Part shown: positions 24,339 through 34,824 of the stretch, in pieces
How positions within the stretch are numbered: position 1 is the first letter of the stretch
Layout: each line of letters starts with the position of its first letter
Assembly: GCA_017501545.1 (NCBI GenBank)
Contig: JAFVWS010000015.1
Span: 1 to 51,393, forward strand
Direction: 5' to 3'
DNA from: Clostridia bacterium
GTDB taxonomy: Bacteria; Bacillota; Clostridia; Oscillospirales; CAG-272
Length of the DNA stretch: 51,393 nt
Notes under the pieces: model-generated
Database searches by the model: none
What the model saw: the letters and a program-made list of their open reading frames with translations, nothing else
What the model was told of the DNA's origin: nothing
Program-made: the position numbers and the translations under genes

Positions 24339-24833
24339 ATGAAAAAAGTTGCTATAATTATGGGAAGCGATAGTGACCTTCCAATTGTTGAAAAAGGAAT
24401 TAATGTTTTAAAGGAATATGGTGTACCGTTTGAGGTTCATGTTTATTCCGCTCATAGAACACCAGTACAAACAGCTGAGTTTGTAAAGAGTGCTAAGGAA
24501 AATGGCTTTGGCGCTATTATTGCAGCAGCTGGTATGGCAGCGCATCTTGCAGGCGCAGTGGCAGCAAACACAGTATTACCAGTAATCGGTATTCCTGTTT
24601 CTTGCAAAAACACTGGTGGTGTTGATGCCCTTTGGTCAACAGTTCAAATGCCTTCTGGCATTCCTGTTGCAACAGTTGCTATTGACGGTGCTGCAAATGC
24701 TGCACTTTTGGCAGTTGAGATGCTTGCTTTATCTGATGATGACCTTTATAACAAGCTCGTTGAGGCAAGACGAGCTGGTGAAGAAAAAGTTCTTGAGAAG
24801 AACAAGGCAATCGAAGAAAAATTCAATAAATAA
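24339..24833 (+). CDS. purE: N5-carboxyaminoimidazole ribonucleotide mutase
   Basis: This 164-residue class I PurE begins MKKVAIIMGSDSDLP, with the substrate loop YSAHRTP, the GAIIAAAGMAAHLAGA segment, VIGIPV and a PSGIPVATVAI stretch. It converts N5-CAIR to CAIR. The frame is open upstream through the riboswitch, but AAGGAG at 24327-24332 and the protein alignment place the start at 24339. First gene of the eight-gene pur operon; purK is not in the window. Confidence 0.95.
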   Translation: MKKVAIIMGSDSDLPIVEKGINVLKEYGVPFEVHVYSAHRTPVQTAEFVKSAKENGFGAIIAAAGMAAHLAGAVAANTVLPVIGIPVSCKNTGGVDALWSTVQMPSGIPVATVAIDGAANAALLAVEMLALSDDDLYNKLVEARRAGEEKVLEKNKAIEEKFNK

Positions 24834-24862
24834 CTTTAAGCTCAAATTACAAGGAGAGAAAA

Positions 24863-26272
24863 ATGGGAGTTTTTGGTATAATCGGAAACGAAAGAACTAA
24901 TGTTGCTTCTAGTGTTTACTATGGTCTCTATGCACTTCAGCACAGAGGACAAGAAAGCTGTGGAATATCAGTTAATGATGACGGTATTATTCACACATAC
25001 AAGGATACAGGCTTAGTAAACGATGTCTTTACAAGTCAAAAGCTTGAATCATTAGGCGAAGGAACAATGGCTATTGGTCATGTGCGTTATGGTACTATGG
25101 GTACAAAGGGCCGTGTCAATGCCGAGCCGCTTGTTGTAAATCACACAAAAGGACATTTGGCTATTGCAACTAACGGAAGACTAGTAAACGGTTCAGTTCT
25201 GAAGCAAGAGCTTGAGCTGAAGGGAATGATATTCCACACATCAAGCGATGCTGAAATTGTTTCCTATGTTGTAATTCAAGAACGCTTGAATTCAGTATCA
25301 ATCGAGGAAGCTGTAAATAAGGCAATGGATAAGTTAAAGGGTGGCTTTTGTATGCTTATGATGTCCCCTAAAAAAATTATTGCTGTAAGAGATGAGCAAG
25401 GCTTTCATCCTCTTTGTTATGGAAAGCGCGAAAACGGAGAATATGTAATCGCTAGCGAAAGCTGTGCGCTTGATTCAGTCGGTGCTACGTTTATTAGAGA
25501 GCTTGAGCCTGGAGAGATTCTTGTTTTCTCAAAGGAAGGAATAAAGTCGATTAAAGATCATTGTAATAAAAAACCAGAATCACTTTGTGTATTTGAATAT
25601 GTATATACTGCACGTCCGGATTCTAATATTTCGGGTTGTTCAGTACACGCAGCAAGGAAAAAGGCCGGCGCATATCTTTCAAAAGTTAGACCTGTTGAAG
25701 CAGATGTAGTTGTTGGCGTTCCAGATTCTGGGCTTGATGCAGCGCTCGGATATGCAGAAGCCTCAGGCATTCCATATGGAATAGGCTTGTTAAAAAATAA
25801 ATATATTGGCAGAACGTTCATTGCACCAGGTCAAAACGTAAGAGAAGATAAGGTTAGAATAAAGCTTAATCCAGTAAAAGAAACAGTTAATGGAAAAAGA
25901 GTGGTTTTGGTTGATGACTCGATTGTACGTGGTACTACTTGTGCAAGAATTGTAAAGCTACTGAGAAACGCAGGAGCAACCGAGGTACATCTTCGCTCTT
26001 CCGCTCCGCCATTTATAAATCCTTGTTATTATGGAACAGATATTGATTCAAAAGAAAATTTGATAGCTTGTCTTCATACTGAGGATGAAATCGCAAAAAT
26101 TGTCGGTGTTGATTCAATAGCATACTTAAATCTTGAGGATGTTACAAAAATCGGTGCAAGTGGACATTGCACAGGCTACTGTACAGCTTGCTTTGATGGT
26201 AATTACCCAACAGAAACACCCAAAATGATTATTAATAAATACGAAAATAAATTGTCAGAAAGTGAGAAATAA
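24863..26272 (+). CDS. purF: Amidophosphoribosyltransferase PurF lacking the N-terminal catalytic cysteine
   Basis: A 469-residue PurF of the Fe-S (B. subtilis) type. The phosphoribosyl half looks intact: YIGRTFIAPGQNVRED, the PRPP loop VVLVDDSIVRGTT, and likely cluster cysteines in ESLCVFEY, NPCYYGTD and CTGYCTACFDGNYPTE. The glutaminase half begins MGVFGIIGNE. Normal enzymes have Cys just before GVFG, either after Met or after a cleaved propeptide, and this Cys attacks glutamine. Here AAGGAG lies 6 bases before the ATG, and the upstream in-frame codons to the stop at 24827 contain no Cys. Conserved HNGNL is TNGRL and SSDTE is SSDAE, though the Arg of GHVRYGT, NG and Asp remain. It may use ammonia or a partner glutaminase. 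It sits between purE and purM. Confidence 0.9.
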   Translation: MGVFGIIGNERTNVASSVYYGLYALQHRGQESCGISVNDDGIIHTYKDTGLVNDVFTSQKLESLGEGTMAIGHVRYGTMGTKGRVNAEPLVVNHTKGHLAIATNGRLVNGSVLKQELELKGMIFHTSSDAEIVSYVVIQERLNSVSIEEAVNKAMDKLKGGFCMLMMSPKKIIAVRDEQGFHPLCYGKRENGEYVIASESCALDSVGATFIRELEPGEILVFSKEGIKSIKDHCNKKPESLCVFEYVYTARPDSNISGCSVHAARKKAGAYLSKVRPVEADVVVGVPDSGLDAALGYAEASGIPYGIGLLKNKYIGRTFIAPGQNVREDKVRIKLNPVKETVNGKRVVLVDDSIVRGTTCARIVKLLRNAGATEVHLRSSAPPFINPCYYGTDIDSKENLIACLHTEDEIAKIVGVDSIAYLNLEDVTKIGASGHCTGYCTACFDGNYPTETPKMIINKYENKLSESEK

Positions 26273-26275
26273 GAT

Positions 26276-27322
26276 ATGAAAAATTCTAGATCTGAAAGCT
26301 ACGCAGCAGCGGGCGTTGATATTACAGCAGGTTATAAGGCTGTTGAGCTTATGAAAAAGCATATTGCACGCACCAAAAACGAAGGCTGCGTTGATGACGT
26401 AGGTGGCTTTGGTGGTTGCTTTGGTTTACCAATTGCAGGTATGGAAGAGCCAGTTCTTGTTTCTGGCACTGACGGTTGTGGAACAAAGGTAAAAATGGCA
26501 ATACTTATGGACAAGCACGATACTATCGGTATAGATGCAGTTGCTATGTGCGTTAACGATATTATTTGCTGTGGTGCGAAGCCGTTATTTTTCCTTGACT
26601 ACATAGCATGCGGTAAAAATATTCCTGAAAAGATTGCTGACATTGTTGGTGGTGTTGCTGAGGGATGTGTACAATCGGGTGCAGCTCTTATCGGTGGAGA
26701 AACAGCGGAGCATCCAGGTATGATGCCTGTCGAGGAATATGACTTAGCTGGCTTTGCAGTTGGTATTGTTGATAAGAAAAAGATTCTTGACAATACAAAG
26801 ATGGCAGAGGGTGACGTTGTTATCGCTCTTGCATCTACTGGTGTTCATTCTAATGGATTTTCACTTTGTCGTAAGGTGTTTGACATTGATAACAATCCAG
26901 ATTCACTTTACGTTCCAAACGAGGCACTTGGTGGTGCATCAATCGCGGAAACACTACTTACTCCAACCAAGATTTATGTAAAATCAGTTCTTGCATTGCT
27001 TGAAAAGGTTAATGTTAAGGGCATTTCACATATCACTGGTGGTGGCTTCTATGAGAACATTCCACGTTCTATTCCAAAGGGACTTAGTGCTAAGGTAGAA
27101 AAGTCAGCAGTTAAGGTTCTTCCTATCTTTGATTTAATTCAAAAGACAGGTAACATCCCAGAAAGAGATATGTACAACACATACAATATGGGTGTTGGTA
27201 TGAGTATTGTTGTTCCAAAGGAAGAGGTTGAAACAGCACTTGAAATCCTTAAGGCTAATGGTGAGGACGCATATGTAATTGGCGAAATCATTAAGTCTGA
27301 CGAGGGTGTAATTCTATGCTAA
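26276..27322 (+). CDS. purM: Phosphoribosylformylglycinamidine cyclo-ligase (AIR synthetase)
   Basis: This 348-residue PurM has SESYAAAGVDITAGYKAVE at the N-terminus, GCFGLPIAGMEEPVLVSGTDGCGTK, IGIDAVAMCVNDI, GGETAEHPGMM and the C-terminal HITGGGFYENIPR. It closes FGAM to AIR using ATP. It follows purF by three bases and overlaps purN by seven, so the genes are tightly coupled. Confidence 0.96.
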   Translation: MKNSRSESYAAAGVDITAGYKAVELMKKHIARTKNEGCVDDVGGFGGCFGLPIAGMEEPVLVSGTDGCGTKVKMAILMDKHDTIGIDAVAMCVNDIICCGAKPLFFLDYIACGKNIPEKIADIVGGVAEGCVQSGAALIGGETAEHPGMMPVEEYDLAGFAVGIVDKKKILDNTKMAEGDVVIALASTGVHSNGFSLCRKVFDIDNNPDSLYVPNEALGGASIAETLLTPTKIYVKSVLALLEKVNVKGISHITGGGFYENIPRSIPKGLSAKVEKSAVKVLPIFDLIQKTGNIPERDMYNTYNMGVGMSIVVPKEEVETALEILKANGEDAYVIGEIIKSDEGVILC

Positions 27323-27927
27323 GAGCTAATATAGCAGTTTTAGTTTCTGGTGGTGGCACAAATTTGCAGGCGCTTATAGATGCGCAAAAAAGCGGTATTA
27401 TCAAAAGCGGTGAAATATGCCTTGTTATATCAAACAAGGAAGGTGCTTATGCACTTGAAAGAGCCAAAAATGCAGGCATCAATACTAAAACTATTTTAAA
27501 GAGTGAGCTTGGCTCACAAGAAAAATTTGAAGAAGCGCTAATAAATGAACTTGAAGAGGCAAATACCGATATTATCGTGCTTGCCGGCTTTATGAGTATT
27601 TTGAGTGCAGATTTTACAAACCATTTTAAGGATAGAATAATTAATGTTCACCCATCACTTATTCCTTCATTCTGTGGTAAGGGCTTTTATGGACTAAGGG
27701 TTCACGAGGCGGCACTTGCTTATGGTGTAAAGGTTAGCGGTGCAACAGTGCATTTTGTTAATGAAATTCCTGATGGTGGTAAAATCATTATGCAAAAGGC
27801 AGTAGAAATTAAAGAGGGAGACACTCCTGAAATTCTACAAAAGAGAATAATGCAAGAGGCAGAGTGGAAAATACTCCCACTTTCCGTGGAAAAGGTATGT
27901 TCTGAGATTATTAAGGAGAGAAGCTAA
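27316..27927 (+). CDS. purN: Phosphoribosylglycinamide formyltransferase (GAR transformylase)
   Basis: This 203-residue PurN has the N-terminal VLVSGGGTNLQALIDA and the catalytic region INVHPSLIPSFCGKGFYGLRVHEA, containing the His of the HPSL motif, then SGATVHFVNEIPDGG with the Asp. It uses 10-formyl-THF, linking the operon to folate status, in line with ZTP control. It overlaps purM by 7 bases and its stop shares an A with the next start (TAATG). Confidence 0.95.
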   Translation: MLRANIAVLVSGGGTNLQALIDAQKSGIIKSGEICLVISNKEGAYALERAKNAGINTKTILKSELGSQEKFEEALINELEEANTDIIVLAGFMSILSADFTNHFKDRIINVHPSLIPSFCGKGFYGLRVHEAALAYGVKVSGATVHFVNEIPDGGKIIMQKAVEIKEGDTPEILQKRIMQEAEWKILPLSVEKVCSEIIKERS

Positions 27928-28646
27928 TGAATATTTACAAAATAGATGAAATAGGCGCACTTTTAAAGGACAATACATACCCAGGTCGTGGTATTGTTAT
28001 TGGTAAGAGCGAGGATGGTAAAAAGGCTGTATTTGCTTACTTTATAATGGGTAGAAGTGAAAACAGCAGAAACCGCGTTTTCAAAGAGGTTGATGGTAAC
28101 GTATTTACTGAGCCATTTGATTATTCAAAGGTTGAGGACCCATCACTTATCATTTATGCAGCAATCAGAAACCACGAAAACAAGATGATTGTTACAAATG
28201 GTGATCAAACTGATACAATTTATGAGGCAATTAAGGACTGTGGTTGCTTTAAAAAAGCTCTTAAGACAAGAGAGTTTGAGCCAGATGCGCCAAACTTCAC
28301 CCCTCGTATTAGTGGTATGCTCACATTTAAGGACGATGGATTTAAGTATCAAATGAGTATTTTAAAGAGTGCTGACGAAGTTGGCTCTGCTTGCAATAGA
28401 TATTTCTATGAATACGCTCCACTTAATGGTCTTGGTCACTTTATCCATACTTATGTATGTGACGGAAACCCAATTCCAACCTTCCAGGGTGAGCCTGAAA
28501 GAGTAAAGATTCCAAATAACATCGATGACTTTACAAATGAGATTTGGAACAATTTAAACGAAAACAATAAGATTTCCTTGTATGTTCGTTATATCGACCT
28601 TGAAAGCGGTGTTTACGAAAATAGAATGATTAACAAAAACAAATAA
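27927..28646 (+). CDS. purO: IMP cyclohydrolase, PurO-like
   Basis: This 239-residue protein has GRGIVIGKSEDGKKAVFAYF, FIMGRSENSRNRVF, a central AIRNHENKM and TFKDDGFKYQMS, and a GLGHFIHTYVCDGNPIPTF region. It matches the archaeal-type IMP cyclohydrolase (PurO) family that many Clostridia use in place of the PurH N-terminal domain. It would close FAICAR to IMP, the last step. Its position directly before a PurH protein lacking the cyclohydrolase domain supports this strongly. Confidence 0.88.
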   Translation: MNIYKIDEIGALLKDNTYPGRGIVIGKSEDGKKAVFAYFIMGRSENSRNRVFKEVDGNVFTEPFDYSKVEDPSLIIYAAIRNHENKMIVTNGDQTDTIYEAIKDCGCFKKALKTREFEPDAPNFTPRISGMLTFKDDGFKYQMSILKSADEVGSACNRYFYEYAPLNGLGHFIHTYVCDGNPIPTFQGEPERVKIPNNIDDFTNEIWNNLNENNKISLYVRYIDLESGVYENRMINKNK

Positions 28647-28669: not shown

Positions 28670-29854
28670 ATGAAAGAGTTTGAACTAAAATATGGCTGTA
28701 ACCCTAACCAAAAGCCATCTAAAATTTATATGGAAAATGGTACTGAGCTTCCAATTGAGATTCTTTGTGGCAGACCAGGATACATAAACTTCCTTGACGC
28801 ATTTAACTCATGGCAGCTTGTAAAAGAGCTTAAGGAGGCAACAGGTATGCCTTGCGCAACCTCTTTTAAGCATGTTAGCCCAACATCCGCTGCTGTAGGC
28901 AAAAAGCTTTCAGATAAGCTAAAGAAGGCTTGCTTTGTTGATGATATAGAGGGTCTTGACGATTCACCACTTGCTTGTGCGTATGCAAGAGCTAGAGGAA
29001 CTGACAGAATGTCATCATTTGGCGACTGGATTGCACTTTCTGATGTTTGTGATGCTACAACTGCAACACTTATTAAAAGAGAAATTTCTGACGGTGTTAT
29101 CGCTCCAGGTTATACAGATGAAGCGCTTGAAATTCTAAAGTCAAAGAGAAAGGGCAATTACAACATAGTTAAGATTGATCCAAGCTATGTTCCTGAGGTC
29201 CAAGAAAAGAAGCAAGTGTTTGGTATTACATTTGAGCAGGGAAGAAATAACTTTGTTATCAATAAGGAGCTTCTTTCCGACATTGTAACAGAGAATAAGA
29301 ACTTTACTGATGATGCAATCACAGACCTTATTATTTCTCTTATTACACTTAAATACACTCAATCAAACTCTGTTTGCTATGCATATGATGGACAGGCTAT
29401 CGGTGTAGGCGCAGGACAACAATCAAGAATTCACTGTACACGTCTTGCTGGTACAAAGGCTGATACTTGGCATCTTCGTCAACACGATAAGGTTCTAAAT
29501 CTTCCTTTCTTACCAACCATCGCACGCCCAGACAGAGATAACGTAATTGATGGTTACATCAACAAGAACGAAGAGGATGTTTGTGCTGATGGAGTATGGC
29601 AAAAATACTTCACACATCAGCCAGAGCCATTAACTGCTGAAGAAATTAGAGCATATCTTGATACTATTACCGGTGTTAGCGTTGGTTCAGATGCATTCTT
29701 CCCATTCAGCGACAATATTGAAAGAGCGCGTCGTAGTGGCGTATCATTTATTGCTGAGCCTGGTGGATCAATTAGAGACGATATCGTAATTGATTGCTGT
29801 AATAAATATGGAATTGTTATGGCATTTACAAAAATGAGACTATTCCACCATTAA
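28670..29854 (+). CDS. purH: AICAR transformylase (PurH lacking the IMP cyclohydrolase domain)
   Basis: This 394-residue protein corresponds to the transformylase half of PurH only (full PurH is about 510-530). It shows KYGCNPNQKPSKIY, the catalytic Lys-His in SFKHVSPTSAAVG, YARARGTDRMSSFGD, AIGVGAGQQSRIHCTRLAG and the end segment VSVGSDAFFPFSDNIERARRSG. It formylates AICAR (ZMP, the riboswitch ligand family) with 10-formyl-THF. AAGGAG lies before the ATG. The cyclohydrolase step is provided by the preceding PurO-like gene. Confidence 0.94.
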   Translation: MKEFELKYGCNPNQKPSKIYMENGTELPIEILCGRPGYINFLDAFNSWQLVKELKEATGMPCATSFKHVSPTSAAVGKKLSDKLKKACFVDDIEGLDDSPLACAYARARGTDRMSSFGDWIALSDVCDATTATLIKREISDGVIAPGYTDEALEILKSKRKGNYNIVKIDPSYVPEVQEKKQVFGITFEQGRNNFVINKELLSDIVTENKNFTDDAITDLIISLITLKYTQSNSVCYAYDGQAIGVGAGQQSRIHCTRLAGTKADTWHLRQHDKVLNLPFLPTIARPDRDNVIDGYINKNEEDVCADGVWQKYFTHQPEPLTAEEIRAYLDTITGVSVGSDAFFPFSDNIERARRSGVSFIAEPGGSIRDDIVIDCCNKYGIVMAFTKMRLFHH

Positions 29855-29866
29855 TGAGGTAAATAA

Positions 29867-31138
29867 ATGAAGGTATTAGTTGTAGGTGGCGGAGGACGTG
29901 AGCACGCCATTATAAGAAAGCTAAAAGAAAGCAAAAAAATAAGCGAAATATATGCACTCCCAGGCAATGGCGGTATGTACAAGGATGCTATACCAGTTGC
30001 TATAGGGGCTAAGGATATAGACGGCATTGTGAAATTTGCCGTTGAGAATAAAATTGATTATGCAGTAGTAGCGCCAGATGATCCATTGGTGCTTGGCTGT
30101 GTAAACGCACTTAATGGTGTTGGCATTCCTTGCTTTGGACCAAGCAAAGAGGCTGCTATTATTGAGGGTAGCAAGGTTTTCTCAAAAAACCTTATGAAAA
30201 AGTATGGCATTCCAACTGCTACATATGAGGTTTTCTCTGATGCTGAAAAAGCGCTTGAGTATGTAAAAACAGGTCCTATTCCAACTGTAATTAAAGCAGA
30301 TGGCTTAGCACTTGGCAAGGGCGTTATTATCGCATTTACAAGAGAAGAGGCAATTGAGGCAGTTAGCTCCATTATGACCGATAAAAAGTTCGGTTCAAGT
30401 GGTGATAACATAGTAATTGAGGAATTTTTGGAAGGGCCTGAGGTATCAGTTCTTGCATTTACCGATGGTAAGGTTGTTAAGCCAATGGTTTCCTCAATGG
30501 ATCACAAGCGTGCGCTTGATGGCGATAAGGGCTTAAATACTGGAGGTATGGGTACAATTGCACCTAACCCATATTACACAAAGGCAGTAGCCGACGAATG
30601 TATGGACAAGATTTTCTTGCCAACAATTGAGGCTATGAAGAACGAGGGCAGAGAATTTAAGGGCTGTCTATACTTTGGCTTAATGCTTACAAAGGATGGA
30701 CCAAAGGTTATCGAATATAACTGTCGTTTTGGCGACCCTGAAACACAGGTTGTTCTTCCTTTGCTTGAAAGTGACCTTTTTGAAATTATGCAAGCTACCA
30801 CTAATGGTACACTTGCAGACTGTGAGGTTAAATTCTCTGACAAATATGCCTGCTGTGTAATTATGGCATCTAAGGGTTATCCAGAAAAGTATCAAAACGG
30901 CTTTGAAATGATTATTCCTGAAAGCATTGAAAAGGACGTTTATGTTGCTGGTGCAAAATACGAGGACGGCAAGATTTATTCAGCTGGGGGACGTGTGCTT
31001 GGTGTTACTGACATTTCAACCTCACTAAAAAGCGCTATTGACGGTGCATATAAAAAAGTAGAACAAATTAAATTTGATAATGCGTTTTATCGCCACGACA
31101 TCGGTGCAAGAGCGCTTATGGCAACGGAGGAAAAATAA
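29867..31138 (+). CDS. purD: Phosphoribosylamine-glycine ligase (GAR synthetase)
   Basis: This 423-residue ATP-grasp enzyme begins MKVLVVGGGGREHAIIRKL, then YAVVAPDDPLVLGCVNALN, TVIKADGLALGKGVIIA, EEFLEGPEVSVLAF and EYNCRFGDPETQVVLPLL. It joins phosphoribosylamine (the PurF product) to glycine. The gene follows purH by 12 bases, and its stop overlaps the start of purL (TAATG). Confidence 0.96.
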   Translation: MKVLVVGGGGREHAIIRKLKESKKISEIYALPGNGGMYKDAIPVAIGAKDIDGIVKFAVENKIDYAVVAPDDPLVLGCVNALNGVGIPCFGPSKEAAIIEGSKVFSKNLMKKYGIPTATYEVFSDAEKALEYVKTGPIPTVIKADGLALGKGVIIAFTREEAIEAVSSIMTDKKFGSSGDNIVIEEFLEGPEVSVLAFTDGKVVKPMVSSMDHKRALDGDKGLNTGGMGTIAPNPYYTKAVADECMDKIFLPTIEAMKNEGREFKGCLYFGLMLTKDGPKVIEYNCRFGDPETQVVLPLLESDLFEIMQATTNGTLADCEVKFSDKYACCVIMASKGYPEKYQNGFEMIIPESIEKDVYVAGAKYEDGKIYSAGGRVLGVTDISTSLKSAIDGAYKKVEQIKFDNAFYRHDIGARALMATEEK

Positions 31139-34100
31139 TGGTTTATCGCATTTACGTTGAAAAGAAGGAAGGACTTCAAAACGAGGCTAACTCTCTCCTT
31201 TCAGAAATCAAAACCTTTCTTGGCATCAAAACCATTGAAGGCGTTAGAATTTTAAATAGATATGATGCTGAAAATATCACAAAGGAGCTTTTTGATTATG
31301 CTGTTAAGACAGTATTTTCAGAGCCACAGCTTGATGATGCATCAGTTAACTTTGACGCAAAGGGTGGAGTAGTATTTGCAACAGAGTATCTTCCAGGTCA
31401 ATTCGACCAAAGAGCTGACTCAGCTGCACAATGTATTCAGCTCATCTCTCAAGGCGAAAAGCCAACTGTACAAAGTGCAAGAGTTTATATTCTTTATGGC
31501 AATTTGTCAAGCGATGAAATTGCTAAGATTAAAAAGCACGTAATTAACCCAGTTGAAGCAAGAGAAGCATCACTTGAGGAAAAAGAAACCTTAAAGGTTG
31601 AATATGATATCCCTACTGAGGTAGCTACTCTTGATGGCTTTATCGAGCTTGATGAAAAGGGACTTGCTGACTTTGTTAAATCATATGGTCTTGCTATGGA
31701 CCTTGACGATATTAAGTTCTGTCAAGCATACTTTAAGACAGAGGGTAGAAACCCAACAATTACTGAAATCAGAATGATTGATACATACTGGTCTGACCAC
31801 TGCCGTCATACAACATTCTCAACAACTATTGATAGTGTTAAGTTTAATGATGAGCTTCTTGAAAAGACCTATAAGGAGTATCTTGATACAAGAAAAGAAT
31901 TAGGCAGAACAAAACCAGTTAACTTAATGGATATCGCAACTCTTGCTGTTAGATATCTAAAGAAGGAAGGAAAGCTTGATAAGCTTGATGAATCAGAGGA
32001 AATCAACGCTTGTACTGTTAAAATCGATGTAGAAATCGATGGTAAGACAGAAAAATGGCTACTTCTTTTCAAGAACGAAACACATAACCACCCAACAGAA
32101 ATTGAGCCATTTGGTGGCGCAGCTACTTGTATTGGTGGTGCTATTCGTGACCCACTTTCGGGTAGATCCTATGTTTATGGTGCTATGCGTCTAACTGGTG
32201 CTGCTAACCCACTAAAGCCAGTTTCTGAAACAATTGAGGGCAAGCTTCCACAAAGAAAGATTGTTACAACTGCAGCTGCTGGTTACTCATCATATGGTAA
32301 CCAAATTGGTTTGGCTACAGGTATAGTTGACGAGATTTATCATGATGGCTATGCAGCTAAGCATATGGAGGTTGGTGCAGTTATTGCAGCAGCTCCAGCA
32401 AAGAACGTAAGACGTGAGGTTCCAGCTGATGGCGACATCGTAGTTTTACTCGGTGGACGTACAGGACGTGACGGCTGTGGTGGTGCTACTGGTTCATCCA
32501 AGTCCCATACAGTTGAATCACTTGAAAGCTGTGGTGCAGAGGTACAAAAGGGTAATGCCCCAGAGGAAAGAAAGCTACAAAGACTATTTAGAAATTACGA
32601 GGCTTGTCGTATGATTAAGCGTTGTAATGACTTTGGTGCTGGTGGTGTTTCTGTTGCTATTGGTGAGCTTGCTGACGGTCTATTTATCGACCTTAATGCA
32701 GTTCCAAAGAAATATGATGGTCTTGACGGCACTGAGCTTGCAATTAGTGAATCTCAAGAGAGAATGGCTGTTGTTATTGAGGCGGAAAACAAGGATAGAT
32801 TCTTAGAGCTTGCAAACAGCGAAAACCTTGAGGCTACAGTTGTAGCAAGAATTACCGAAGAGCCAAGACTAAAAATGGTTTGGAACGGTAAAATTATTTG
32901 TGATATCAGCCGTGAGTTCTTAAACTCAAACGGTGCAGAAAAGCATATAGATATTGAATGTGCAAAGGTTGAGTCCTATGCAAAAGCTATCCCTACTGAT
33001 TTCGAGGCAGGAATGATGGACGTTGTTACTGACTTAAACGTTTGCTCAAAGAGAGGTCTTAGCGAGCGCTTTGACTCTACAATCGGTGCAGGCACAGTTC
33101 TTATGCCATTCGGTGGTAAGAACCAACGTACACCAATTCAAGCAATGGTGCAAAAGGTATCTGTTGAAAAGGCTCACACAGACGATTGCTCATTTATGTC
33201 ATGGGGCTATAACCCATACATTTCAGAAAAGAGCCCATATCATGGTGCATATCTTGCAGTTGTTGAGTCAGTTTCTAAGCTTATCGCAACTGGTGCTAAA
33301 TACGAGGATGTTTACCTAACATTCCAAGAGTACTTTGAAAAGCCAACAAAGGTAGCAACTCGTTGGGGCAAGCCTTTGTCAGCTCTGCTTGGCGCGTTTA
33401 AGGCACAAAAGAACCTCGGTATTGGTTCAATTGGTGGTAAGGACTCAATGAGTGGTTCATTTGAAAAGCTTGACGTTCCACCTACACTTATCTCATTTGC
33501 AGTTACAATGGGTAAAACAAGTGAGGTTATCTCACCTGAATTTAAGAAAGCCGGCAATAAGGTTGTTCTATTAAAACCAGAATATGACGAAAACGGATTA
33601 CCTGTAACAGAGTCACTTATTGCTCTTTATAACAAGGTTACCAGCCTTGCAAGAAGTGGTAAGGCAGTGAGCATTTATACACCAACTATTGGTGGTGTTG
33701 CTGAAGCTGTTTATAAGATGGCTATCGGTAATGGTCTTGGCTTTGAATTTGCTGATGTAGATATTAGCGAAATCTTTGCTTATAACTATGGTTCGTTTAT
33801 CGTTGAGCTTTCTTGTGACGATGAAATCGGTATTAATCTTGGTAAGGTTACAGATAACTTTGCTATTTCATACAAGAATAGCAAGATTTGTATGTGTAAG
33901 CTAAATGAGGGCTATGAAAACAAGCTTGAAAGCGTTTACCCATGCAACATTGCATTTAACGAAGAAAAGCCAGAAACAGTGTCCTACAAGGCTGAAAAGC
34001 GCATAGGTGCCAACATTAAGGTTGCAAAGCCAAAGGTTCTTATTCCTGTATTCCCAGGCACTAACTGTGAGTTTGACTCTGCAAAGGCTGCTATGGACGC

Positions 34101-34824
34101 AGGGGCAGAGAGCGAAATATTTGTTATCAACAACCTAAGTGCTGAGGGCATTAAGAGAAGTGCTGAAGCATTTGCAAAGAAGGTTGGAGAGAGCCAAATC
34201 GTATTTATCCCTGGTGGATTTAGTGGTGGTGATGAGCCGGATGGTTCTGGCAAGTTTATAACAGCGTTCTTCCGTGGAAATGATGTTAAGAACGCAGTTA
34301 CTGAGCTTCTTGACAACCGTGGTGGACTTATGTGTGGTATCTGTAACGGATTCCAGGCTCTTGTTAAGCTCGGTCTTGTTCCTTACGGAAAGATTATTGA
34401 CACAGATGAAAACTGCCCAACTCTTACATTTAACAATATCTCAAGACACCAATCTAAGATTGTAAGAACAAGAATTGCATCGAATATGTCACCTTGGCTT
34501 GCTGAATGCAATGTTGGAGATATTATTAATGTTCCAATTTCACATGGTGAAGGTAAGTTCTTAGCTAACGATGCTACAATTAAGGAATTAATTGCAAACG
34601 GACAAATTGCGACACAATATGTTGACCTTGACGGAAATGCAACATATGATATTCAATACAATCCAAATGGCTCCACTCTTGCTATTGAGGGTATCACATC
34701 CCCAGACGGACGTGTATTTGGTAAGATGGGCCACTCAGAGCGTATTGATAATGGTCTATACAGAAATGTATACGGCGAATACGATATCAAGATGTTTAAA
34801 TCGGCGGTTAAATTCTTTAAATAA
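31138..34824 (+). CDS. purL: Phosphoribosylformylglycinamidine synthase, single-chain PurL
   Basis: This 1228-residue fused PurL contains an N-terminal PurS-like region, two AIRS-like halves (TYWSDHCRHTTFSTT, FKNETHNHPTEIEPFGGAATC, GRTGRDGCGGATGSS, CNDFGAGGVSVAIGEL) and a C-terminal class I glutaminase domain. The glutaminase nucleophile is the Cys in CGICNGFQAL (about residue 1069), with His/Glu in SHGEGKF. So this second glutamine-dependent enzyme of the operon keeps its cysteine, in contrast to PurF. Last gene of the operon; a 12-bp terminator follows. Confidence 0.95.
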   Translation: MVYRIYVEKKEGLQNEANSLLSEIKTFLGIKTIEGVRILNRYDAENITKELFDYAVKTVFSEPQLDDASVNFDAKGGVVFATEYLPGQFDQRADSAAQCIQLISQGEKPTVQSARVYILYGNLSSDEIAKIKKHVINPVEAREASLEEKETLKVEYDIPTEVATLDGFIELDEKGLADFVKSYGLAMDLDDIKFCQAYFKTEGRNPTITEIRMIDTYWSDHCRHTTFSTTIDSVKFNDELLEKTYKEYLDTRKELGRTKPVNLMDIATLAVRYLKKEGKLDKLDESEEINACTVKIDVEIDGKTEKWLLLFKNETHNHPTEIEPFGGAATCIGGAIRDPLSGRSYVYGAMRLTGAANPLKPVSETIEGKLPQRKIVTTAAAGYSSYGNQIGLATGIVDEIYHDGYAAKHMEVGAVIAAAPAKNVRREVPADGDIVVLLGGRTGRDGCGGATGSSKSHTVESLESCGAEVQKGNAPEERKLQRLFRNYEACRMIKRCNDFGAGGVSVAIGELADGLFIDLNAVPKKYDGLDGTELAISESQERMAVVIEAENKDRFLELANSENLEATVVARITEEPRLKMVWNGKIICDISREFLNSNGAEKHIDIECAKVESYAKAIPTDFEAGMMDVVTDLNVCSKRGLSERFDSTIGAGTVLMPFGGKNQRTPIQAMVQKVSVEKAHTDDCSFMSWGYNPYISEKSPYHGAYLAVVESVSKLIATGAKYEDVYLTFQEYFEKPTKVATRWGKPLSALLGAFKAQKNLGIGSIGGKDSMSGSFEKLDVPPTLISFAVTMGKTSEVISPEFKKAGNKVVLLKPEYDENGLPVTESLIALYNKVTSLARSGKAVSIYTPTIGGVAEAVYKMAIGNGLGFEFADVDISEIFAYNYGSFIVELSCDDEIGINLGKVTDNFAISYKNSKICMCKLNEGYENKLESVYPCNIAFNEEKPETVSYKAEKRIGANIKVAKPKVLIPVFPGTNCEFDSAKAAMDAGAESEIFVINNLSAEGIKRSAEAFAKKVGESQIVFIPGGFSGGDEPDGSGKFITAFFRGNDVKNAVTELLDNRGGLMCGICNGFQALVKLGLVPYGKIIDTDENCPTLTFNNISRHQSKIVRTRIASNMSPWLAECNVGDIINVPISHGEGKFLANDATIKELIANGQIATQYVDLDGNATYDIQYNPNGSTLAIEGITSPDGRVFGKMGHSERIDNGLYRNVYGEYDIKMFKSAVKFFK

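Follow-up and report, generated by a model that had tools for sequence, protein, structure and literature searches.

By the textbook account, the amidophosphoribosyltransferase PurF is a glutamine enzyme. Replacement of its N-terminal Cys1 by Ala or Ser in Escherichia coli abolished the use of glutamine and left that of ammonia, according to a passage of a later paper (PMC3261824, citing Mei and Zalkin 1989). The same paper remarks in passing on Mlab_0150 of Methanocorpusculum labreanum, a PurF copy whose nucleophile is replaced by Ser, that stands beside a normal PurF and that its authors suspect not to be a PurF (PMC3261824). Among related enzyme families, the NAD synthetases provide a tested precedent for the use of free ammonia in vivo, as some members are ammonia-utilising, single-domain proteins without a glutaminase domain and others are glutaminase-bearing, as described in PMC3376133. 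Apart from the remark on Mlab_0150 (PMC3261824), the titles and abstracts of the open-licence literature yielded neither a natural Cys-less PurF nor a genome-wide switch to ammonia.

Here we describe a PurF without Cys1 that is encoded in a 51,393-nucleotide stretch of DNA from a Clostridia bacterium (contig JAFVWS010000015.1), hereafter called the window. This protein shares with known PurFs (TIGR01134) the two-domain length, the PRPP loop, four cysteines, the place in a pur operon and a score above the cut-off, but differs from them by the missing Cys1, the missing propeptide and a changed oxyanion stretch together with several other changed residues of the glutaminase site. The nearest solved structures by sequence are those of Bacillus subtilis type PurF (1gph and 1ao0). 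It lacks the same nucleophile as the E. coli Cys1 mutants, but its state is natural, is found clade-wide and comes with further changes (Q88E, H103x, N106x, R182H and F249T). Unlike Mlab_0150, it has no other PurF copy detected in its genome, and unlike the single-domain NAD synthetases it has kept its glutaminase domain in a disarmed form.

The window PurF and its purine operon

The purF gene lies in an operon of the order purE-purF-purM-purN-purO-AICAR formyltransferase-purD-purL (Table 1), and its product matches the PurF model TIGR01134 with 489.9 bits (cut-off 350) over residues 2-449. The protein begins MGVFGIIGNER, where Cys-bearing PurFs read CGVFG after their propeptide; the N-terminal catalytic Cys of glutamine-dependent Ntn amidotransferases is thus replaced by Met1, as in all 26 members of the clade described below. 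The 11 in-frame codons between the upstream stop and the ATG contain neither a start codon nor a Cys codon. At the positions of TNGRL and SSDAE, the aligned Cys-bearing PurFs mostly show HNGNL, a stretch that we take to be the oxyanion hole, and SDTE; Asn104 and Gly105 of this stretch are retained in the window PurF. Also kept are the PRPP loop and Asp pair, presumably the PRPP-binding site, and C242, C388, C440 and C443, which we take to be Fe-S ligands. These readings bear out the initial annotation, made from the letters of the window, which had reported Met-Gly-Val-Phe-Gly in place of Cys1, an AAGGAG ahead of the ATG with no Cys upstream, the changes from HNGNL to TNGRL and from SSDTE to SSDAE, and the persistence of the PRPP loop and likely Fe-S cysteines.

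Table 1. Coordinates of purF, its sequence elements and the neighbouring purine genes in the window
Feature	Positions	Strand	Evidence
purE, start at inner ATG (ORF from 24237)	24339..24833	+	name by recognition
Ribosome-binding site AAGGAG, six bases 5' of purF ATG	24851..24856	+	sequence reading
purF, amidophosphoribosyltransferase without Cys1, 469 aa	24863..26272	+	ORF; TIGR01134 match
ATG (Met1) where the catalytic Cys1 codon belongs	24863..24865	+	alignment with 37 Cys-bearing PurFs
Class II GATase (glutaminase) domain at the N-terminus, about residues 1-230, without its nucleophile	24863..25552	+	GATase_6 and GATase_7 matches; border approximate
TNGRL, changed from HNGNL	25169..25183	+	alignment with Cys-bearing PurFs
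SSDAE, changed from SSDTE, Asp retained	25241..25255	+	alignment with Cys-bearing PurFs
Thr249 in motif FEYVY(F/T)ARPDS	25607..25609	+	Phe in 35/37 Cys-bearing, Thr in 26/26 Cys-less
PRPP loop VVLVDDSIVRGTT, intact	25901..25939	+	sequence reading
purM	26276..27322	+	ORF, operon order; name by recognition
purN	27316..27927	+	ORF, operon order; name by recognition
purO-like IMP cyclohydrolase	27927..28646	+	NF003167, 58.8 bits, well below cut-off 150
Stand-alone AICAR formyltransferase, adjoining the purO-like gene	28670..29854	+	NF005492, 676.2 bits, cut-off 415
purD	29867..31138	+	ORF, operon order; name by recognition
purL, with intact class I glutaminase motifs of its own, CGICNGFQ and SHGEGKF	31138..34824	+	TIGR01857, 1870.8 bits; motif check

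In other loci with a Cys-less PurF, the pur operon is retained as far as the contigs extend. In 13 loci of genus g1, purE lies directly 5' of purF, a place taken by purC in many Cys-bearing relatives, and a deletion reaching into the first purF codons may be a simple candidate for the origin of the Cys loss. Note also that the purC preceding purF in many of these relatives is of a YEGKAKK type that is absent from this place in the Cys-less g1 loci, and that some members of the Cys-less clade carry a YxGKTKDV-type purC elsewhere in the genome (loci L071, L162-L168, L170-L175 and L283).

The clade of Cys-less PurFs

The survey covered 57 genomes of relatives and 395 drawn from the family, 138 of the latter having a match at E 1e-60 or better. 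Met stands in the place of Cys1 in 26 genomes, of which 19 belong to genus g1, six to g46 and one to g82; among the 138 genomes, the 22 whose alignment begins at residue 1 are all within the 26, the first residue of most others being unread. All 26 Cys-less PurFs form a single clade with an SH support of 1.0 in a tree of 63 sequences, and the 19 from g1 are united with a support of 100/100 in a tree of 47 sequences. The larger tree and the residue comparison given below leave out six GGFFG/SGFFG sequences (see below) and the mis-trimmed L165, and do not contain L042, of which the start is missing. Two members of g1, G014 and G028, retain Cys1 and branch beside the Cys-less clade (support 0.72). 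When public genomes were scanned, 78 of the 79 related PurFs read among the best 80 of 586 candidates had Cys1 (the 80th, L113, was left out); the only Met-bearing one, SIG661, is on a contig of identical DNA to G015. G015 and G004 are metagenome assemblies, and the latter is Clostridia bacterium RGIG4685, from roe deer rectum according to its title.

The loss of Cys1 in the window PurF is confirmed as real and as more than chance, because 26 genomes share Met1 as one clade that is under purifying selection. The earlier reasoning, by which several linked changes count against a single base error, holds. A base error, a wrong start codon or a frameshift concealing the Cys could be invoked for the window as a single assembly, but across the whole clade this explanation has already been refuted, and we give it practically no chance. 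Upstream of purF, an in-frame ATG, GTG or TTG is absent in 25 of the 26 genomes (in G298 an ATG lies nine codons before the start, and in G020 a CTG lies eight codons before it), and where in-frame Cys codons do occur upstream (G004, G018, G305 and G135), none is found behind a start codon.

Residues that set the clade apart were sought as columns with at least 85% of one residue in the 37 Cys-bearing sequences and at most 15% of that residue in the 26 Cys-less ones. Six columns were found: C1M, Q88E, H103 changed mostly to T, N106 changed mostly to R or K, R182H and F249T. C1M, Q88E, R182H and F249T are each present in 26/26 Cys-less sequences, and H103 is lost from all of them. F249T is the only one of these changes outside the glutaminase domain; it adjoins Tyr248 in FEYVYFARPDS, a stretch presumably near the ammonia channel, and Thr249 is also found in one Cys-bearing PurF (G049). 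The clade retains Asn104 in 13 of 26 sequences (lost in 13), Gly105 in 23 (lost in three) and Asp129, which we assume to be the glutamine-binding Asp, in 24. Within the clade R75, Y76, the four Cys and the PRPP Asp pair are invariant, the Cys and the Asp pair being invariant also across the 37 Cys-bearing sequences. With R75 kept in all 26 sequences and Asp129 in nearly all, the glutaminase domain may still bind glutamine; a glutamine-binding role is attributed to R73 of E. coli PurF in PMC7953260.

Among 11 Cys-less pairs, all computable dN/dS ratios were approximately 0.02-0.10, for either domain (synonymous sites being often near saturation), indicating that the Cys-less PurF is under constraint, glutaminase domain included. 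Decay of the glutaminase domain was rejected on these grounds. The same values bear on whether the PurF might be inactive, with purines coming from salvage, or the protein be purely regulatory. The tested genomes do lack other nucleotide genes, for instance pyrG, which would fit such a loss of function, but purifying selection acts on both domains, the PRPP Asp pair and the four Cys are retained, the pur operon has been kept over the extent of the contigs and the window's genome has no other detected PurF, so that we regard an inactive or regulatory protein as very unlikely.

Another residue could in principle have taken over from Cys1. Residue 2 is small in every Cys-less PurF (17 Gly, six Ser and three Ala), so Met is probably removed, and an N-terminal Ser, Gly or Ala would then be exposed to cleave glutamine. 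However, neither Gly nor Ala offers a nucleophile in its side chain, the position of residue 2 is off by one and the Asn104 of the oxyanion stretch is lost in half of the sequences; moreover, the Cys to Ser change in the E. coli enzyme is stated in a passage of PMC3261824 to give no detectable glutamine activity. We consider such a replacement extremely improbable.

We would also like to mention a second, distant PurF-like family without Cys1 from the same order, of which the members start with GGFFG or SGFFG (L047-L053, from G030, G031, G044, G050, G048, G052 and G046). In G048, G050 and G052 (loci L050-L052; 98, 97 and 99% complete) a GGFFG PurF lies between purE and purM, and no canonical PurF was matched in these three genomes. 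This family shares with the window PurF the absent Cys1 and, in the three loci, the purE-purM setting, but is only about 30-32% identical to it, and the one member scored reaches 196.4 bits against the PurF cut-off of 350. Placement of the window PurF in this family was rejected, as the tree of 47 sequences (19 Cys-less and six GGFFG/SGFFG) separates the two groups with 100/100 support each. The nucleophile may thus have been lost in a working purine operon more than once. A link between GGFFG-type PurF and a short GuaA was noticed by eye only.

Nitrogen-handling genes of Cys-less genomes

Other nitrogen-handling genes were compared between 13 of the 26 Cys-less genomes and nine Cys-bearing ones, a set of our own choosing from which the cluster-carrying G004 and G027 (see below) were left out. 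Judged by family models on incomplete assemblies, pyrG is found in 0/13 Cys-less versus 8/9 Cys-bearing genomes, a GATase-bearing guaA in 0/13 versus 8/9, carA in 0/13 versus 5/9, and carB without carA in 13/13 versus 1/9; these associations rest on one clade, and hence on few independent events, and their significance values ignore kinship. The Cys-bearing G014, G028 and G178 lack both carA and carB. G335, the only one of the nine without pyrG, has partly altered sites (NNGT, SDAE, HPLC); it retains Cys1 yet lacks pyrG, carA and a full GuaA, and the losses are therefore not strictly tied to that of the nucleophile.

The GMP synthase of the window's genome is a protein of 332 aa without a GATase domain (TIGR00884, 445.4 bits). 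This short form is seen in 11 of the 13 Cys-less genomes by size, the GuaA of G002 and G361 being fragments, and in 13/13 by the absent GATase match. GATase-less GuaA occurs widely in the family, frequently accompanied by a full-length GuaA. The two forms are adjacent in L304, L311 and L312 (G057, G421 and G078), which suggests paired glutamine and ammonia versions. At L260 and L298 (G391:C96), a GuaA-like protein of 421-429 aa, with what appears to be a decayed N-terminal GATase remnant, lies 3' of a full-length GuaA. In the nine Cys-less genomes in which the context of CarB was read, the order is pyrC-carB-pyrK-pyrD without carA, with pyrE and mostly also pyrF and pyrB nearby (names by recognition).

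CTP synthase (PF06418) was found neither in the 13 Cys-less genomes nor in G335; UMP operons are present where read (for example, the pyr operon at L282). A change of nitrogen donor does not account for the loss of PyrG. The gene glmS, whose product would supply glucosamine-6-phosphate, was not found in 8/13 Cys-less genomes, the window's and seven others.

Glutamine use as such has not disappeared. A glutamine synthetase match is present in 22/22 genomes, and the glutaminase motifs of PurL are intact in all 16 Cys-less genomes in which PurL is covered to the end of the gene (PurL matched in 18 of 24 loci, the other six, L062, L064 and L176-L179, ending before the glutaminase domain). The PF00117 (class I GATase) matches in the 13 Cys-less genomes are frames of 204-267 aa, none of them of the size of CarA, GuaA or PyrG. 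In the four genomes whose small matches were read (G000, which is the window's genome, G002, G011 and G015), all are HisH in his operons, intact in 4/4, and are the only class I match. The class II matches by PF13522 in the window's genome are AsnB, which keeps MCSICGE, and PurF. PurL, HisH and AsnB, intact where read, and the glutamine synthetase matches indicate that these bacteria have not given up glutamine across the board.

The same inventory weighs on a further explanation, namely that the window PurF receives its ammonia in trans from a separate glutaminase, on the pattern of two-subunit amidotransferases. Such partnerships exist for GMP and NAD synthetases (PMC10526850 and PMC3376133), and the retained glutaminase domain, with R75, Y76 and Y248, could have preserved a docking surface. 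However, HisH, AsnB and PurF itself are the only matches in the window's genome by PF00117 and PF13522, and a GlsA-type glutaminase (PF04960) is absent from it and present in just 1/22 genomes. HisH is likewise the only class I match in G002, G011 and G015, the other three of the 13 genomes in which the small matches were read, and no shared new gene adjoins purF in the 13 g1 loci. The partner suggested by the initial annotation was thus not found with these models in the 94% complete assembly of the window, and we judge this explanation unlikely.

In G004 and G027, both of them assemblies from the clade, the Cys-less PurF is accompanied by a Cys-bearing one (PurF-b). The second, normal purF that had been proposed is found in these two assemblies; in the window's genome itself (1.86 Mb, 49 contigs, 94% complete) none was found. 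PurF-b is encoded in a nitrogen-assimilation cluster, within a purC-purA-purB-guaA-pyrG-purF-carA-carB-dapF-dapL-nadE run that adjoins genes for an ANTAR regulator, glutamine synthetase (GlnA), glutamate synthase parts, GSIII and asparagine synthase (asnB), and, in G004, an AmtB-PII fusion (ten genes were named by Pfam, the remainder by recognition). G004 (L316, L322, L317; G004:C30) and G027 (L318, L325, L326; G027:C47) share the gene order of the cluster, which includes every function missing from the 13 genomes except glmS, including a full GuaA, PyrG, CarAB and a normal PurF.

The cluster was likely transferred into these two genomes. Its genes have closer counterparts in other genera of the family than in the g1 loci compared; the flanking genes gave almost no match to these loci by which kinship could be established (one of 59%). 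The PurF-b may alternatively be carried by misbinned DNA or a chimeric contig, as the GC content of the PurF-b contigs is 0.45-0.47 against 0.39-0.41 (0.41-0.49 in the cluster itself), and no return to low GC was seen on the side away from nadE; just past nadE, however, and only on that side, the GC content drops to genus-like values (0.34-0.42) in both contigs. Portions of the cluster are also present in G425, G057, G059, G126, G396, G285, G178, G110, G103, G242, G036 and G055. At ten compared sites, the cluster PurF copy is canonical in 7/7 genomes with both copies read and the operon copy departs in 4/7: G059, G126 and G396 have a canonical operon copy, G057 and G036 an altered one, and G004 and G027 a Cys-less one (the operon copy of G110 was not picked up). 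A canonical cluster copy next to a departing operon copy is what would be expected if the operon copy had been freed to specialise on ammonia, and we infer that the latter may have become an ammonia-dependent isozyme beside the glutamine-dependent cluster PurF. The cluster copy would cover low-nitrogen conditions, and other members would have lost the cluster or never had it.

The nitrogen donor and its implications

We consider it likely that the window PurF converts PRPP into phosphoribosylamine with free ammonia in place of glutamine. The enzyme would be part of an ammonia-dependent set, with an optional glutamine-dependent one, and the parallel losses in these genomes suggest that free ammonia enters their nucleotide synthesis directly. 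The reaction would take place on the intact phosphoribosyltransferase domain, and the disarmed glutaminase domain would be kept for folding, subunit contacts or signalling; we infer an active enzyme with bulk ammonia as its probable donor and with a glutaminase domain that may now be structural or signalling. Free ammonia was one of the donors put forward initially, and it is favoured, indirectly, by the 13/13 tested genomes that have CarB and the synthetase part of GuaA and lack CarA, the GuaA GATase and PyrG. Passages in the literature indicate that ATPPase units of GMP synthetase accept external ammonia in vitro (PMC10526850) and that E. coli CarB forms carbamoyl phosphate from ammonia, at a level that is likely physiologically irrelevant for the E. 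coli carbamoyl-phosphate synthetase (PMC6245113). The latter point is the chief doubt about the use of ammonia by the window PurF, which would call for either a high-ammonia habitat or adapted enzymes.

A more far-reaching proposal, which we put forward tentatively and regard as possible rather than probable, divides these enzymes into two sets by nitrogen donor: an ammonia-using housekeeping set (Cys-less PurF, lone CarB and GATase-less GuaA) and an optional glutamine-using cluster that is linked to glutamine synthetases, glutamate synthase and an ammonium transporter. Members without the cluster would then depend on ammonia; as PyrG is found only in cluster-carrying or Cys-bearing genomes, they would need to obtain CTP by an undescribed route, perhaps an ammonia-dependent CTP synthase, or to import cytidine.

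If the preferred reading of the window PurF is true, nature offers a case in which free ammonia can sustain the committed first step of purine synthesis, through an enzyme that is fixed in a clade and is apparently the only PurF copy in most genomes looked at. Annotation by family models (purF, guaA, carB) conceals the nitrogen donor, and the PyrG-less genomes point to a possible gap in our knowledge of CTP synthesis. With CarA, the GuaA GATase and PyrG absent together, the choice of donor would be a matter of lifestyle that goes beyond one enzyme, and these bacteria would serve as a natural experiment on what cells gain by channelling ammonia from glutamine.
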